A stretch of 56,486 bases of DNA from Candidatus Curtissbacteria bacterium RIFCSPLOWO2_02_41_11 (GCA_001775055.1 MFBU01000002.1:1-56486), one strand, 5' to 3'; positions 18,257 to 37,949 are shown, numbered from the stretch's first letter. Notes: generated from the letters alone by a model not told the origin. A program made the numbers and translations.

Positions 18257-18276
18257 GGACTCTTTCGACATTTAAC

Positions 18277-19821
18277 CTACTTATTCCTTGATCTTACAGC
18301 TCTTGATTCTCTAATTCGTCCTCGATAAACTTCACCACACCTTGCCAATACCTGATTAACTAATTCTACATAATCCTCAATCGATTTTCCTTTAGTTACC
18401 ATTTCACAAATTTTTAGAGCAGCAGATTCATTAACATAAAGTTCCAATGCGTCGTCCCCTATTCTTTTGGCTGCCTGATATAAAGGATAATCTGAGTTAA
18501 TCTTCAAAACCTGCCTACCAGTTTCTTGAACAACATCAGCTCGTTTATCAATTGCACCCATTGAGACAGGTTCCCAGCGGTCCAAAGCCCCCCAGCGTCT
18601 GACTGTTTCGCCAACAGTCGCATCCAAAGTCGGGGCAGTCGCCCCAGAAATTGCTTCGGGTGGGCGGTGGGTACCACCAGTTGGCACCTTAGGCTGAACA
18701 ACTCTTTTAGTAGGTGGCCGACGACCAGTTGATTCACCCGGTAATTCTCTTTTAGTAATTAAGCCCGTAGTTGCCAAAACATGTTCAAAGACTCTTTTGG
18801 CTCTTCTGGCAATATCTTTTTCATAACTTTCAACCGGACTTTTCTGTTCAATTCTTAGCTTAGCCAATTTCTCTATCCAGGGATTAAGAACGTCGTGAAT
18901 TCTTTTAGCGGCATTTTCCCATTGGGGACTACTGTGAATAAAGTTGGCTTTATTTGGCAAAACTGGGACAAAGTCCAAGTGGGCTTCCCCGATAAGCCTT
19001 GAAATCTGAGGCATTTGAGCAGGAGTAGGTTGACTAAAGAATTGTTCGTCTTCAATTAATCTGCCGCGGTAGTAACAGCGAATGCCGGGTTTTATTCTTT
19101 GAACTTCGGCAAGTATTCCAACTTTCAATTCTAGCCAATCACCGAATCTGGTCTGAACTCTAAGTATCTGCGGGCGCAAATTTGCCTCATCTTCGGCATA
19201 TTTAATTTCCAAAGGCTCGACCTTCTTGCCATTAAGTAAGATCGTAACCGAGCCATCTAAAAGTAAAGGCCGGTAAATATCGGCCAGTTTGGCTACCAAA
19301 GCTGGTGCATTGACTTCACGTTTGAGATTGGTGACCCTCGCTCTAAAATAACCTTCTTTGGCAACCGCTTTTCTTTCTTCCGGCTCAAACTCTTTCCATT
19401 CTCCTTCTCGTCTTGTTTCCCATTCAGGATCAAAAACTCGATACTCACTATCTGAACCTCTAGCCGAACAAACGACTTCCATACTCCTACCTAAAAACCC
19501 CATGGCTGCCTTACCGCCGACTCCATAAAAACCAATTTGGCCGGTGGTTTTCTCCGATTCACCCCAAGAGAAAAATTTCTCCAATCCTGCGGGATCCAAA
19601 CCCTCACCACCGCGATTAAAAACCACCAATTCATTTTTAGTTACTCTGACCCTGACCTCAAGCGGCTGATTTTCAATCCGGTTGTCGACAGCATTATCAA
19701 TTAATTCCAAAAAAGCCTGTTGAGCATCCCTGTAATTGGACATTAAAGCCTCAATCGCTCTGGTGGCGACCCGTTCTTTAATTGTCCATGGTCCTCGTCC
19801 TAGTCTATCTTCTGGGCTCAT
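18277..19821 (-). CDS. GHKL/MORC-like ATPase, third gene of the winged-helix operon
   Basis: 514 aa. Residues ~20-200 form a Bergerat (GHKL) ATPase domain: N-box FLELIDNAVDNRIEN (Glu39, Asn43, Asp46), G1-like region FNRGGEGLDP (68-77), G2 GQIGFYGVGGKAAMGFLG (94-111). Residues ~210-310 resemble the S5 domain of MutL/MORC-type proteins. The middle (~330-410) is basic and Pro/Thr-rich; the C-terminus is helical. In G1 the usual adenine-contacting Asp of DNGxG is replaced (Arg70-Gly71 in my alignment). MORC-like ATPases clamp DNA or rearrange chromatin. The start codon has AAGGAGGA and lies 17 nt inside the preceding gene. Confidence 0.8.
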   Translation of the reverse strand: MSPEDRLGRGPWTIKERVATRAIEALMSNYRDAQQAFLELIDNAVDNRIENQPLEVRVRVTKNELVVFNRGGEGLDPAGLEKFFSWGESEKTTGQIGFYGVGGKAAMGFLGRSMEVVCSARGSDSEYRVFDPEWETRREGEWKEFEPEERKAVAKEGYFRARVTNLKREVNAPALVAKLADIYRPLLLDGSVTILLNGKKVEPLEIKYAEDEANLRPQILRVQTRFGDWLELKVGILAEVQRIKPGIRCYYRGRLIEDEQFFSQPTPAQMPQISRLIGEAHLDFVPVLPNKANFIHSSPQWENAAKRIHDVLNPWIEKLAKLRIEQKSPVESYEKDIARRAKRVFEHVLATTGLITKRELPGESTGRRPPTKRVVQPKVPTGGTHRPPEAISGATAPTLDATVGETVRRWGALDRWEPVSMGAIDKRADVVQETGRQVLKINSDYPLYQAAKRIGDDALELYVNESAALKICEMVTKGKSIEDYVELVNQVLARCGEVYRGRIRESRAVRSRNK

Positions 19822-22009
19822 GTTTCCTCCTTACCCACTCAACTTCACGACCACTGCCAGAAGGATGATCACGATAAAATTGTCTGACTGAACGGTCAAT
19901 CTCCAGCCTTACCTTGCGTTTAAAGTCTTCAATGTCATAACCTGACCATCTTTGTTGAAGTAATTGGAGCCTTTCCCAAAGCTGCCTTTCTTCGACTGTC
20001 CAAGTTTCTTTCAAATGGGCAATTTCTGCCTCTTCTCTCATTTTGGTAAAAGCTGAGACAAACTTGTCTTTAAGTTCTTCTGCTCGATAGATAAAATAGA
20101 TTTTGTCGCCCAAAACCTGTCTGTCTCTTTCTTTTGAGTAAAGTTCTCTTTGAAGCTCTTCAAAGCGCAATCTGGGATTTACCGAAAGCATTGAAACAAT
20201 TACAGCCAAAAGCCGCGTTTCTTCTTTAGATCTTTTTTCCTCCTCAGTTGGTTCATAAGGTTTAACAATTACTTCAGGTGGTTGAACTTCAGCCGGTTCA
20301 ACAACTGGCACTGCTGCTTCCGGTAAGGGTGCTTCTTCAATAACTAGCGCAACTTCTTCGATTACAGGAGCTTCTTCGCCCGTTGGCACCGCTTCCACCT
20401 GTTTAGTAATTTTTTCCAGATAGTAAGCTCCTAATTCACCTTGAATCCTTTCACCGCCAACAGTATTAACAATTTGCCAATTGAAGGGCTTTAGAAATTT
20501 CCTTAGATTTGACATCATTCTCCAGATCAGCGCTTGGTTTGTTTCGCTATAAACTCCATATAATGCCTCAGATATCTTATCAGTTTGAACTGGATTTTCT
20601 TTTGAAGTCTTAGCTAAACTTTCTAATGCTCTAGCTCTTAATTTACCTCGAATTTCAATAATTTGCCCATCAGGAAGGGTGACTTCAAAAACTTGATGGG
20701 ATTCTTTGTATCTTTTGGTTTTTTCAACTTCACCCACAAACTCAACTTGAGCATTAAGACGGTAGGTGATCTTACCTCCAGGTCGAGAGGAAATTATCAA
20801 TTGTGGGTTTTTGGGATCAAATTCGAGAATTCTCTTTATACTATCAACAACATCTCTAGCAGGGTATTTTGCTTTCGAACCAACTCCTCTGGCAATTCTT
20901 GCAATTTCACTCCAAAGAATATCCTTATTTTGATTCTTTGCCAAATGATTAAACACTTCCCAATTAATGCGGCCACTAATTTTTACGGTTCTTCCATCAA
21001 TTGTCACCTCTCTTGTTTCTTGATCGATTCGCAAGGTTGGTAGTCTCTTTTCAACTTCTTCTACCCTTGAAATGGGTTTTTCCTTAACTGTTTCTGATCT
21101 GGTTTCTTCAGGCCAAACTACATTAACGTTTTGTAGCAAATACCAAGAACCCCCACTTTTATTTCCTGAACTTACTAAAATATCTCCCCATTCGGGTGAA
21201 TTTATTCTCTCTCTTAATCTTTTGACCTTGTCACTTAAGAAAGTTTCGCGTGGAGTCGGATTAGCGAAAGCTTCTTGAGAAAGTCTACGCGTTGGAATTT
21301 TTTGGCCAACACTTCTTGCTAAAACTTGTAAAACTTTCAATTGTTTATCGGCTAGCTTAATTCTTCTCCCGGCAAGTTCAATCTGATTTTGTCCTGTAAA
21401 AAATCTAAGGATGGGTTTTTCAACTTCCTCTACCGCTTGTGGTTTTTCTTCAACCGGCGCCAGATAATATTTAGACTCATTTCCTTTGCGAAACTCACCG
21501 TGTGGCGTTAAATCAACAATTCTCCAACCAGCGTCCTGAAGTTTTCTGCGGATTCTTGAAAGAATAACTGATAGTCTATTTTTGGTTACAGCTATAGAAA
21601 CTTTCTTATCATAAACTGTTTTTGCTATTTCAGAGCTTGTTAATGCTTCATCTGGACTAAAATGAAGTCTTGAAAGAATTTGCTTTTCTTTTGCACTTAG
21701 ATCAGCTACCTTTCCACCATCAGGAAAGACGAAATCTCTCCCAATCTCTACCTCAATTCTTGGTAGAACGGAAGGGATGACAGTTGGCGCTACTGCTTCT
21801 TTTAGTACCGGGGCTCGACGTGCTTGTAGACCTTGAGCAATTTCAGATTCTGACCTTTTTGTCCAAATTTCATCAACCTTGGTTTTGGCAATAGTAATTT
21901 CGACCTCCACGCCTTCTTCCTTGGCTTTCCGCCATTGCCAACGGGTAACAGCTAAATCATGTAAATATTTATCAGCAACGGTTGCAAAAGTTTTTTCTCG
22001 CTCAGCCAT
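19805..22009 (-). CDS. Large protein with four tandem OmpR/PhoB-type winged helices
   Basis: 734 aa, no TM segment. Four modules share the trans_reg_C pattern (strand, 'LS/LA..E.Q/K.L..L' helix, recognition helix with 'R..L', final wing): residues ~92-185 (LSAKEKQILSRL...RIRRKL), ~200-293 (LADKQLKVLQVLARSVGQ), ~325-420 (NWEVFNHLAK...DPKNPQLIISSRPGGK) and ~438-534 (RALESLAKT...GAYYLEKI). There is no receiver domain. A Glu/Pro/Val linker (~540-600) leads to a charged helical C-terminus. It overlaps the first gene by one base (TAATG) and the ATPase gene by 17 nt. It probably binds DNA at several sites at once; this is inference. Confidence 0.75.
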   Translation of the reverse strand: MAEREKTFATVADKYLHDLAVTRWQWRKAKEEGVEVEITIAKTKVDEIWTKRSESEIAQGLQARRAPVLKEAVAPTVIPSVLPRIEVEIGRDFVFPDGGKVADLSAKEKQILSRLHFSPDEALTSSEIAKTVYDKKVSIAVTKNRLSVILSRIRRKLQDAGWRIVDLTPHGEFRKGNESKYYLAPVEEKPQAVEEVEKPILRFFTGQNQIELAGRRIKLADKQLKVLQVLARSVGQKIPTRRLSQEAFANPTPRETFLSDKVKRLRERINSPEWGDILVSSGNKSGGSWYLLQNVNVVWPEETRSETVKEKPISRVEEVEKRLPTLRIDQETREVTIDGRTVKISGRINWEVFNHLAKNQNKDILWSEIARIARGVGSKAKYPARDVVDSIKRILEFDPKNPQLIISSRPGGKITYRLNAQVEFVGEVEKTKRYKESHQVFEVTLPDGQIIEIRGKLRARALESLAKTSKENPVQTDKISEALYGVYSETNQALIWRMMSNLRKFLKPFNWQIVNTVGGERIQGELGAYYLEKITKQVEAVPTGEEAPVIEEVALVIEEAPLPEAAVPVVEPAEVQPPEVIVKPYEPTEEEKRSKEETRLLAVIVSMLSVNPRLRFEELQRELYSKERDRQVLGDKIYFIYRAEELKDKFVSAFTKMREEAEIAHLKETWTVEERQLWERLQLLQQRWSGYDIEDFKRKVRLEIDRSVRQFYRDHPSGSGREVEWVRRKHEPRR

Positions 22010-24084
22010 TATTTTGCCCCCTTATGGTTGTTATTATGACCACCCAAAAATTTCTTCCGTTGTTCAACTGTTGCCCAACGGGGAAGATTGCGCATCAACG
22101 GGTTAATAAATACCCGATGAATATCTTCAAGCATTAACTCATTACCATCAAAGCGGGCAATTTGTGACCAGATTTTCTGCCAGCCTTCGGGTAATCGGGC
22201 AAAAATTGAACTTTGCAAAAAGCGTTGTAAGGTTGGGGCTTTGGTTAGCCGCCATTGGGCTTTCATTTGGTCATAAGCCTTTTGCAGATCACGCCTGATT
22301 CGTTCTTCTTGGACGTCAAGTTGTTTGTTAACGCCACTTTTTGGCCTTGAGTGACGACCAAAGATTGCATGGCGTAGATTATTAATGGCCGGATACATCA
22401 ATTTCCCCCTCTCATCAAAGTTAAATACTTGAGTTAAAGTTTTCATATATCTTTCATTGGCTGCCGAGCCAAACTCTCGATCTTCGCGAATTTCCACCGG
22501 TTTGATCTCGATGGCCTGAGGTGGAGCAGCCTCTTCAGCAGTGGTATCAGTTGAAACAAATTCATCAACATTTCGGATCAAAAAGTCATAAAGCTTTTCG
22601 AGCTGTTCACTACTAAATTGTTCAAGATCAAGCGAAATAGCAAAAGCTTCTATCAAGTGGTCGTGGGCGTTAAGAACTTTATTTAAGTGGCCTTGATCAA
22701 CAACTGTTCTTAATTTAGCCAGAATCTCACGCCTTTGGTTTTCTAAATCAGTTTTTTGTTCCGATGTTAAATTGACAAAATCGCCAGTTAAATCTTTTTC
22801 CAGTTCTTTAAGGCTTGGGAAGTTAATTCTGCCCCTTGAGAGTAGAGCTTTCTTTTGGACAAAATTAGCTGCCAAAATTCTAATTTCCTCATCGGAAAAT
22901 TCAGGGACTGTGACTGCCTCTTCTTCCTTTGGGAAAAAACGCTGGTGAATCCACTCTCGAAACTGCTTGGCATCCGCAATGCCAAATTGCCCAACCACTT
23001 CTTGAGCTTGAAGCCATAAGCTCTCTTCAATGTCAGTTAACGTCTGTTGTTCGGCTCGCCGGTAAAGTTTGGTGATCTGGCCCGTCATCCAAAATTCACC
23101 ACCCCTGACCGTGTAAGGACTGCCATCAGTCTTTGGTCCCATAAATTCAACCCATTGATCAGCGCTTCCCTGAGGGTTTTCCAATAACCAGCGTAGTCCT
23201 TTAACGCTTGGAGCACCAAGAGGAATTGTATCGATTTTTTTGACTACTTCAGAAAAATCGGCATTGATAAAATTTTCCAGTTTGTAAAGGGCACCGTGTC
23301 TTCCGACTCGTCTTAAGAGAAGAAATCTTGGGTTTTTGGGATCAAGTTCTATTTTGCTCCTTAAATTCCAAACAATTGTGTGCAAGGCATACCCGACCGC
23401 TTGAATCTCAGGTTGGCAAATAATTTGCTGTCTTTCAACTTCTTGACCTTGGACATTTGCCAAAATTGTTAATAGGCGCCTTTCAGCTTGATTAAGTTTT
23501 TTTCTTCGGCCGGCAATTTCAACTTGACCTGTTCTTGGATCAAAAAGCAATTGCGGCAGCGCTTCCTCTTCTGGTACCGTCCTAATCTCTAATTTTCTAG
23601 GCGCTTCTTCGATAACTGACGGTTTTTCTTCTTTTTGCTCGCGCTCGGCAATGATTCTCTGGCCTAAAGCGATGTCCAAGTCTTGGTCAGCTTGAGTCAG
23701 GAAAGTTTGGTATTCTTGTTGGCGTGACTTGAGAAGTTGGGAAGGGTAATCACCAGCAGTAGCTGCTCTTTCAAAAAGAGCCAGTCTTTCTTCCCAGAGT
23801 TGCTTTTCGTCATTAAAACGCTTGGCTTTAGCCACCAATTCTTCTTGGCGACTGATTTGATTAATTTTGTCGGTAATTTCCTCAGCTTCAACTATGGAAA
23901 TAATTGAGTGGTCACGTACCCTGGCTTTAAAGTCCAAAATGCGTTCATCCATTGCAATTGATTGACCAAACCTGACCTGACCATCGAATCCTGCTCTGTT
24001 GGCAATAGATTGTCGAGAAGCAATACGCTTATCAAGCTGTTCTCTTCTCTGTTGTAATAGCTGTAAATCTTGTTCTTTTGGCAT
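22009..24084 (-). CDS. Large winged-helix protein, first gene of the three-gene operon
   Basis: 691 aa. Residues 1-150 are charged coiled-coil-like helices (many Gln, Glu, Arg). Residues ~178-270 form one OmpR-type winged helix (LNQAERRLLTILANVQGQ, then DPKNPRFLLLRRVGRHGALY). Residues ~280-690 are helical with no motif I recognise; a segment near 545-640 (RYMKTLTQVFNFDERGKLMY) looks like a separate domain. No TM, nuclease or ATPase signature. The protein shares its module style and Glu/Pro linkers with the next gene product, so the two probably arose from one family and act together. Confidence 0.75.
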   Translation of the reverse strand: MPKEQDLQLLQQRREQLDKRIASRQSIANRAGFDGQVRFGQSIAMDERILDFKARVRDHSIISIVEAEEITDKINQISRQEELVAKAKRFNDEKQLWEERLALFERAATAGDYPSQLLKSRQQEYQTFLTQADQDLDIALGQRIIAEREQKEEKPSVIEEAPRKLEIRTVPEEEALPQLLFDPRTGQVEIAGRRKKLNQAERRLLTILANVQGQEVERQQIICQPEIQAVGYALHTIVWNLRSKIELDPKNPRFLLLRRVGRHGALYKLENFINADFSEVVKKIDTIPLGAPSVKGLRWLLENPQGSADQWVEFMGPKTDGSPYTVRGGEFWMTGQITKLYRRAEQQTLTDIEESLWLQAQEVVGQFGIADAKQFREWIHQRFFPKEEEAVTVPEFSDEEIRILAANFVQKKALLSRGRINFPSLKELEKDLTGDFVNLTSEQKTDLENQRREILAKLRTVVDQGHLNKVLNAHDHLIEAFAISLDLEQFSSEQLEKLYDFLIRNVDEFVSTDTTAEEAAPPQAIEIKPVEIREDREFGSAANERYMKTLTQVFNFDERGKLMYPAINNLRHAIFGRHSRPKSGVNKQLDVQEERIRRDLQKAYDQMKAQWRLTKAPTLQRFLQSSIFARLPEGWQKIWSQIARFDGNELMLEDIHRVFINPLMRNLPRWATVEQRKKFLGGHNNNHKGAK

Positions 24085-24120
24085 TTTTCAATCCAATAAA
24101 AATAGACAGGAACAGGGCGC

Positions 24121-24149
24121 ATTTAAACATATTGAGTGGAATTTGTCAA
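24121..24149 (-). promoter_or_regulatory. Predicted promoter of the three-gene winged-helix/ATPase operon
   Basis: Perfect -35 TTGACA (24144-24149), 17-nt spacer, -10 TTAAAT (24121-24126) on the minus strand, about 35 nt before the first start codon. This is the only perfect -35 box on the minus strand that I located near a gene start. Confidence 0.6.
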
Positions 24150-24171
24150 CCCTATAGTTGAGGAACTCTTA

Positions 24172-36944: not shown

Positions 36945-37949
36945 ATGAGAAAAGAAAGTCTAAATGTTCCTATAGTAGATAGATACAAAGGCTGCTTGTT
37001 GGGTGTAGCTGCAGGTGATGCTTTGGGTCAGCCCGTGGAATTCATACCACTCAATGGAAAGGACAAAGCCTTAGAGAGATTTGATGAACCATGGAAAAGG
37101 AAAATTAGAAAGTTTATCAAAGAAATTCAAGAAAAACACGGTGGGGTTATTCGTGAAATGTTACTAAATCCTTTTGGATATTGGGAAAAAGGTGAATATA
37201 CAGATGACACAACTCAAACCTTACTCTTAGCTGATAGTTTTATTGAGAAAGGTAAATATGATCCAGATGATTTTGTTAGTAGATTACTAAAATGGTATGA
37301 CAATGGTAAAGCCAAAGGTATAGGCAGAACCACAGAGCTAAGCCTCGGTTTAATAAATGCAGGTGTTGCTGATTGGAAAAGTGTGGGAAAGTATGTATTG
37401 AAAAATTTTGGTAAGTTTTTCTCTAATGGTTCACTCATGAGAACCTCACCTGTGGGTTTATATTTTAGAGAATACATAGAAGATATTGATCGGGTAGCAG
37501 CTGAGCTTTCGATAATAACTCATGCAGCTGAACCTGCAATTGTGGTTTGTCAAATGGCAAGCCAATTAGTATCACAACTAGTAAGTGGTGTGCCCAAAAA
37601 TGAAGCAGTTGACTTTATCGAGAGGAAGTTTAAAACTGCTTATGAAAATGTCTATAATTCCTATAGCGATTATGAAAAGTATCCGATGAATGCCGATTCA
37701 ACATTCTCAGTTGCTTTAATTTCTTTTGCTAATGCAGATAGTTTTGAAGAAGCTGTGGTTGAGGCGGTCAATAAAGGTGGAGACACAGATACATGTGGCT
37801 CAGTGGCTGGAGCACTTGCGGGAGCTTATTGGGGCGTTGCCCAAATACCTGAAAGATGGGCAAAATGTCTAAAACCACAAAGTGCTCAACAAATTGGTAG
37901 TAAAGCTGAAAAATTGTACCTTCTAAATACTTCTTTACGTAGAAGTTGA
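36945..37949 (+). CDS. ADP-ribosylglycohydrolase (DraG-like)
   Basis: 334 aa of the ADP-ribosyl-glycohydrolase fold. Metal-binding motifs: GVAAGDALGQPVEF (residues ~20-33), EYTDDTTQTLLLAD (~85-98) and the C-terminal NKGGDTDTCGSVAGALAGAYWG (positions ~274-295; Gly-Asp-Thr-Asp-Thr core). Two Mg ions held by these Asp/Thr residues hydrolyse ADP-ribose from proteins or small molecules. A matching ADP-ribosyltransferase is not in the window. Monocistronic, AT-rich, in the accessory segment. Confidence 0.93.
   Translation: MRKESLNVPIVDRYKGCLLGVAAGDALGQPVEFIPLNGKDKALERFDEPWKRKIRKFIKEIQEKHGGVIREMLLNPFGYWEKGEYTDDTTQTLLLADSFIEKGKYDPDDFVSRLLKWYDNGKAKGIGRTTELSLGLINAGVADWKSVGKYVLKNFGKFFSNGSLMRTSPVGLYFREYIEDIDRVAAELSIITHAAEPAIVVCQMASQLVSQLVSGVPKNEAVDFIERKFKTAYENVYNSYSDYEKYPMNADSTFSVALISFANADSFEEAVVEAVNKGGDTDTCGSVAGALAGAYWGVAQIPERWAKCLKPQSAQQIGSKAEKLYLLNTSLRRS

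Follow-up and report, generated by a model that had tools for sequence, protein, structure and literature searches.

MORC proteins are defined by the S5 motif GhXhhpXXRhl in the sections of Iyer, Abhiman and Aravind 2008 (PMC2292703) that we draw on here, and the same sections place the prokaryotic members chiefly in restriction-modification (R-M) loci, in company with an SFII helicase, a nuclease or a DNA methylase, and propose DNA looping for them. Knowledge of these prokaryotic relatives dates from 2008 and concerns R-M loci almost exclusively. In eukaryotes, MORC2 clamps and compacts DNA (PMC12216690), and how restriction-type MORC ATPases became chromatin-packing enzymes is the question on which the operon described here bears. 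The operon lies in a stretch of 56,486 nucleotides (hereafter, the window) from Candidatus Curtissbacteria bacterium RIFCSPLOWO2_02_41_11, a very small organism not yet cultured, and it pairs a MORC-type ATPase with proteins made of OmpR-type winged helices.

Gene order and domains of the operon

The ORF call of the window gave three consecutive genes on the minus strand, A, B and C, in an overlapping order:

22009-24084, minus strand: gene A, 691 aa; a single winged helix of the OmpR type and a long C-terminal region
19805-22009, minus strand: gene B, 734 aa; a helical region at the N terminus, then four winged helices of the OmpR type, then a helical domain at the C terminus
18277-19821, minus strand: gene C, 514 aa; an ATPase with GHKL and S5 domains, of the prokaryotic MORC type (HATPase_c_3, PDB profile, Foldseek)
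22009, minus strand: 1-nt overlap of A and B (ORF coordinates)
19805-19821, minus strand: 17-nt overlap of B and C (ORF coordinates)
24144-24149, minus strand: TTGACA 5' of A, a candidate -35 with no good -10

The three-gene operon linked by overlaps of 1 nt and 17 nt, as claimed in the first-pass annotation, is hence borne out by the ORF coordinates, and the 17-nt overlap suggests that translation of B and C may be coupled. The promoter with a perfect TTGACA that had been proposed upstream of A stands only as far as the hexamer, which is indeed present; the promoter itself is unproven, because no acceptable -10 hexamer is found 16-18 nt past TTGACA (24149-24144), the site is not among the predictions of a promoter scan of the region, and the promoter-like matches in the region (20 versus a shuffled mean of 14.5, sd 3.7) are near chance. 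An Rfam search found no element, and no nuclease, methylase or helicase was found by Pfam in the A-B-C operon.

In gene C, Pfam hit HATPase_c_3 (E 7.8e-8). When a C-family profile built from six relatives was searched against the PDB, the best matches were MORC4 (2.3e-12) and MORC3 (7.8e-12), followed by SMCHD1 (4.4e-4) and MutL (6e-3); also, when Foldseek was run with an AF2 model of C (pLDDT 73), the three best matches were structures of MORC4 and MORC3, and TRAP1 and MORC2 followed closely. The motifs of C are as follows:

19675-19716, minus strand: N-box AFLELIDNAVDNRI, aa 36-49, Mg/ATP site with the catalytic Glu (alignment)
19489-19542, minus strand: GxGxK glycine box GQIGFYGVGGKAAMGFLG, aa 94-111 (alignment)
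19054-19086, minus strand: S5 MORC signature GIRCYYRGRLI, aa 246-256 (alignment versus GhXhhpXXRhl, PMC2292703)
18949-18951, minus strand: S5 lysine K291 (NKxxF-type loop), invariant in the six-sequence alignment

The signature agrees with the MORC motif at 10 of the 11 positions, a Tyr sitting at the polar position. With the PDB profile, Foldseek and the S5 signature in agreement, the earlier description of C as a MORC-like GHKL ATPase holds, and, as judged by the sequence profile, C is closer to MORC than to the other families of GHKL proteins. The TRAP1 structures among the top Foldseek matches would also fit an Hsp90-like remodelling or assembly factor that works on A and B and does not itself touch DNA; the profile nonetheless prefers MORC, and Hsp90 is absent from the PDB matches at E<=0.01, so that we regard such a role as quite improbable. 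In the alignment, the N-box and the glycine box of C are intact, but the Asp of the G1 box (adenine contact) is changed to Asn (N69), with one inserted residue. The same Asn and insertion occur in a paralogue from the same genome and in relatives from Yanofskybacteria and Chloroflexi, while Asp is kept in two of the other pair-bearing genomes introduced below (G278 and G056). Because it is common to the restriction-linked relatives of C, the G1 deviation is largely a subfamily trait, and C is likely to use nucleotide. The N-box Glu is replaced by Asp in two close relatives of C in the alignment.

As for the winged helices, Trans_reg_C (PF00486, the OmpR type) was hit by Pfam in three stretches of B (E 2.5e-14) and weakly, below the cut-off, in A (E 0.0011). 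We then used leave-one-out profiles, for which the domains of related proteins were taken and the target was excluded, with 200 shuffles as a control. Built without B, the profile recovered four copies in B and no more (40.7-56.2 bits); built without A, it recovered a single copy in A. The best shuffles reached 5.1-5.2 bits:

23269-23541, minus strand: winged helix of A, aa 182-272 (27.5 bits, versus 5.2 for the best shuffle of 200)
21446-21718, minus strand: winged helix 1 of B, aa 98-188 (40.7 bits; AF2 pLDDT mostly 65-79)
21119-21391, minus strand: winged helix 2 of B, aa 207-297 (43.6 bits)
20738-21034, minus strand: winged helix 3 of B, aa 326-424 (56.2 bits)
20405-20686, minus strand: winged helix 4 of B, aa 442-535 (42.5 bits)
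19808-20287, minus strand: C-terminal helical domain of B, aa 575-734 (AF2 pLDDT 77-89 over most of it; sequences of relatives)

Since these scores are far above the best shuffles, the count of one winged helix in A and four in B given at first reading is correct. The AF2 model of B, made from three sequences, is of low confidence overall (pLDDT 49), and we relied on it only where it covers winged helix 1 and the C-terminal domain. Foldseek with this model hit many OmpR-family DNA-binding domains (YycF, CssR and SaeR) at a probability of 0.97-0.99, none of them at E<=0.001, and the PDB held no relatives of the C-terminal domain beyond weak coiled-coil-like matches. Residues 2-53 of B also matched Csy3/Cas7f (E 2.6e-4 to 1e-2), which we consider a chance match because it is partial, falls in a predicted helical N-terminal stretch and is unsupported otherwise.

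Two further readings can be weighed on this domain content. Topoisomerase VI pairs GHKL-S5 with winged helices, and the same broad pairing in the operon might represent a decayed topoisomerase VI-like pair of a GHKL-S5 subunit and a winged-helix cleavage subunit; no Toprim or topoisomerase VI A domain was, however, found by Pfam in A or B, and the ATPase is nearest to MORC, which leaves this reading hardly credible. Alternatively, C could phosphorylate winged-helix transcription factors or control them allosterically and thus form a regulatory switch, given that a GHKL protein adjoins a winged-helix protein also in the case of CapK (GHKL kinase) and CapS (wHTH repressor) (PMC13373217). A, B and C have no STAS domain (Pfam, E<=1), however, and C has instead the S5 domain with the MORC signature; CapS furthermore has one wHTH versus four in the 734-aa B. 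We therefore consider a switch of this kind improbable, albeit less so than the chaperone-like role.

Recurrence and location of the winged-helix/ATPase pair

Both C and B were searched for in 280 genomes of the class, in the public genome collection and in the family of one Levybacteria genome (G238). For the public collection, the profile was derived from a three-sequence alignment; C alone gave poorly conserved patterns and no matches in genome contigs. A winged-helix gene was found to abut or overlap a MORC-type ATPase gene in six genomes (namely, that of the window, G238, L056, G278, G072 and G056), which are spread over four families (f1, f16, f3 and f4) of one class. From the Ca. Levybacteria names of two of them, this class would be Microgenomatia. 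G238 is the same as L057, Ca. Levybacteria RIFCSPHIGHO2_01_FULL_36_15b, and L056 is Ca. Levybacteria RIFCSPLOWO2_01_FULL_39_10, which, judging by coordinates, appears to be the same as G630. The two genes are separated by 1 nt in G238 and L056, the spacing is 4 nt in G072 and 20 nt in G056, and in G278 the ATPase gene overlaps the second of two partner genes by 20 nt. Identity to the window C is 53-55% for the copies of the two Levybacteria genomes and only 21-26% for the far diverged ones of G278, G072 and G056. In the tree, the ATPases of the window, L056, G238 and G278 form a supported clade (97/95), and the AU test does not reject a grouping of all six (p 0.26).

The 18 control loci, which carry other GHKL/MORC-like ATPases, showed no neighbouring winged helix, and neither did ten stretches around distant MORC-like matches elsewhere in the phylum. 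One genome (G672) has a G278-type ATPase with no detectable winged-helix neighbour, and the link between winged helix and ATPase is therefore strong but not absolute. In L056, the winged-helix score of the partner is weak (E 0.011), and its kinship to B is seen in the C-terminal half (E 1e-21). The C-terminal domain of B, which the Levybacteria partners share, was found in four of the 280 genomes of the class; the ATPase is present in two of these and absent from the other two (G173 and G226).

Gene A behaves in a different way. Among the 280 class genomes, its only clear relative is in G013, a genome without this ATPase. The sole other candidate for a trio is G278, where two partner genes are present and the winged-helix score of the second is marginal, and the trio is hence present at most twice. 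The co-conservation beyond the window that was foreseen at first reading is thus found for B and C, with a patchy distribution, but not for the full trio; from this gene content, B and C are the core of the module, and A does not belong to that core.

The genes around the operon read as housekeeping or metabolic. In the window, the neighbours are hisS, rpmE, prfA and dedA on one side and htrA, ctp, ssb, rpsF and ychF on the other. With names read from translations, the pair in G238 and L056 is located beside what we take to be rpsB-tsf-frr-rseP, and that in G072 and G056 between the presumed def and fmt. The insertion site in the window can be delimited by comparison with relatives:

18257-24171, strand not assigned: interval between the convergent DedA and HtrA genes, which holds the operon

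A, B and C are absent from this interval in all eight same-family relatives examined, in which DedA and HtrA are adjacent, except that DedA is missing in L121, with HtrA abutting PrfA, and that small unrelated genes occupy the interval in L120 and L125. The ATPase C was found in none of 14 same-family genomes (0/14), nor in the congeners of G238 and G630. The two ends of the insertion have no repeat of at least 8 nt in common, and the base composition and codon usage of the operon look native; there is, therefore, no signature of a transposon or of recent transfer. Given the patchiness, the empty sites, the native composition and the lack of repeats, we describe the operon as an accessory unit that was gained or lost, neither universal nor a visible mobile element. 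Control of a mobile element, one of the functions first suggested, finds no counterpart in mobile-element genes or flanking repeats around the operon, and a housekeeping function, which was expected to show as universal single-copy presence, does not agree with the patchy distribution.

The history of the ATPase may lead back to restriction. A second, diverged copy is present in the same genome (contig C14, 33% identity to C), adjoining genes that we read as a C5 cytosine methylase (Dcm-like) and a Vsr-type endonuclease; a ResIII-type helicase fragment is found at this locus as well. Upstream of an Actinomycetota relative, the genes presumably encode AbiE-like and type I methylase proteins. 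From these gene contents, the C14 locus appears to be the classical context of prokaryotic MORCs, whereas no SFII helicase, nuclease or DNA methylase is linked to the window C in the operon or among the identified neighbours.

These data also bear on anti-phage defence, in which DNA that is foreign or unmodified would be recognised by the winged-helix proteins and clamped or blocked by the ATPase, without a nuclease. The distribution is patchy, differing even within a genus, the nearest other relatives are in loci of the restriction type or a similar kind (the C14 paralogue and the Actinomycetota copy), and the sections of PMC2292703 used here place prokaryotic MORCs chiefly in R-M loci. The operon, on the other hand, has no nuclease, methylase or helicase and hence no effector, and the housekeeping neighbours in the window and at the other pair loci give no positional support. 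PADLOC gave no full-length defence match, only weak, partial ones to TmtA (E 1.1e-5, the GHKL part of C) and to a Cas7f fragment (B), and a database search found no phage match and one distant plasmid match. Of the signs of defence named at the outset, therefore, conservation as a unit (for B and C) and patchiness were observed, but linkage to defence genes was not. Because of the ancestry of the ATPase and its patchiness, we still allow defence a minor share of the probability, above that of any other rival considered here.

Proposed mode of action and comparison with known systems

The reading that we prefer, and to which we give about an even chance, is that B and C constitute an accessory module for DNA superstructure or silencing, with the MORC-type ATPase as a DNA clamp and B as the protein that positions it. 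By analogy with MORC2, C, a kin of restriction-locus MORCs, would form a dimer when it binds nucleotide and close into a clamp; B would bind DNA through its four winged helices and place or hold this clamp, and A could contribute a further DNA contact. DNA might in this way be bridged, looped or compacted under the control of ATP, and selected or foreign sequences silenced. Of the DNA-binding scaffold with an ATPase, as first put forward, the genetic linkage of the ATPase to multi-winged-helix proteins has stood, while the defence linkage and mobile-element role have not; the proteins themselves would form a complex. An accessory DNA-superstructure or silencing module would, we infer, fit better than defence or housekeeping, and the CapK-CapS-like switch, the chaperone role and the decayed topoisomerase are less likely. 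More tentatively, and with the odds against it, the module may be a bacterial counterpart of MORC chromatin silencing, with an ATP-gated clamp from a former restriction ATPase, loaded by a dedicated tandem winged-helix binder, that compacts or silences DNA in CPR bacteria. If true, the operon would be a sign that these bacteria have a DNA-organising or silencing module so far unrecognised; in any case, a compact operon with a MORC-type ATPase uncoupled from restriction and joined by a putative DNA binder on a separate polypeptide is a small, testable system for the action of MORC on DNA.

Among known systems, OmpR/PhoB response regulators share with A and B the type of winged helix (PF00486), but A and B have no receiver domain (Pfam, E<=1), and four tandem copies and an ATPase partner are found here. 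CapK-CapS (PMC13373217) and HEF_HK/Response_reg_2 (PMC8011034) resemble the operon in that a GHKL protein is genetically linked to a regulator; the former differs in the STAS domain carried by both CapK and CapS and by none of A, B and C, and the latter in PF19191 and PF19192, which are absent from A, B and C (Pfam, E<=1). SMC-kleisin-KITE complexes, with an ATPase on DNA and tandem winged-helix subunits, are a functional analogy only; the fold of their ATPase is unrelated, the operon has no kleisin, and its winged helices are of the OmpR type. Eukaryotic MORC2/3/4 are the closest solved relatives of C by profile and fold and provide the clamp and compaction as a model (PMC12216690); their DNA or chromatin readers are fused to the ATPase, whereas in the operon the corresponding part would be a separate polypeptide. 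The prokaryotic MORC/paraMORC proteins of R-M loci, as far as the sections of PMC2292703 cited above describe them, have in common with C the GHKL and S5 domains, the MORC S5 signature and the sporadic spread, and C differs from them in the absence of a helicase, nuclease or methylase in the window, in the tandem OmpR-type winged-helix partner and in the Asn of the G1 box. In the open-licence literature, we found no description of an operon of MORC and tandem winged helices. The components thus belong to known families, their pairing is to our knowledge undescribed, and the operon is best regarded as a variant of the prokaryotic MORC kind.

Genomic positions of winged-helix genes and of the operon

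Winged-helix genes without an ATPase were found in two genomes (L026:7435-8898 and L030:8290-13089), and in both they are located at one common housekeeping spot, between rnc and rpsP; this identical position suggests that these genes were inherited vertically. Also, we noticed that a genome of the window's family has a cluster of three genes (789, 527, and 867 aa; L024:1469-8038), again with no ATPase, the first two of which encode a winged helix. This cluster is placed beside rseP, the spot of the ATPase operon in Levybacteria. In some relatives, furthermore, small unrelated genes are present within the HtrA-DedA-PrfA region (L118:3479-4689 and L125:927-2050), which may therefore be an insertion hotspot.

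Winged helices in other combinations

At L029:6242-8831, an Hsp70-like gene is preceded, in the same orientation and at a distance of 193 nt, by the gene of a 319-aa winged-helix protein resembling B, the 734-aa protein of the operon, which hints at partner swapping. Four proteins of ~420-460 aa (L019:1492-2754, L020:445-1761, L099:1465-2841, and L100:481-1809), two of them from the window's genome, also appear to be P-loop NTPases with an OmpR-type winged helix fused C-terminally. Residues 2-53 of B itself (window 21851-22006) partially matched Cas7f/Csy3 models with E of 2.6e-4 to 1e-2, probably by chance. Of the window genes that were tabulated, an ADP-ribosylglycohydrolase gene (36945-37949) is lowest in GC3 (0.245) and ranks second from the top in codon-usage distance.

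MORC-type ATPases in other settings

An ATPase of 586 aa resembling the diverged copy of genome G278 has no detectable winged-helix neighbour and is adjoined by a convergent, apparently helical protein of 526 aa (L136:2953-6295). A different MORC-like ATPase adjoins an apparent trypsin-like protease gene (L049:1346-3716). On another contig of the window's own genome (C14; L004:7015-12598), a MORC-type ATPase paralogue with 33% identity to C, the ATPase of the operon, is present in a restriction-type locus, together with genes reading as a C5 methylase, a Vsr-type endonuclease, and a possible restriction enzyme, and with a truncated fragment of a ResIII-type helicase.
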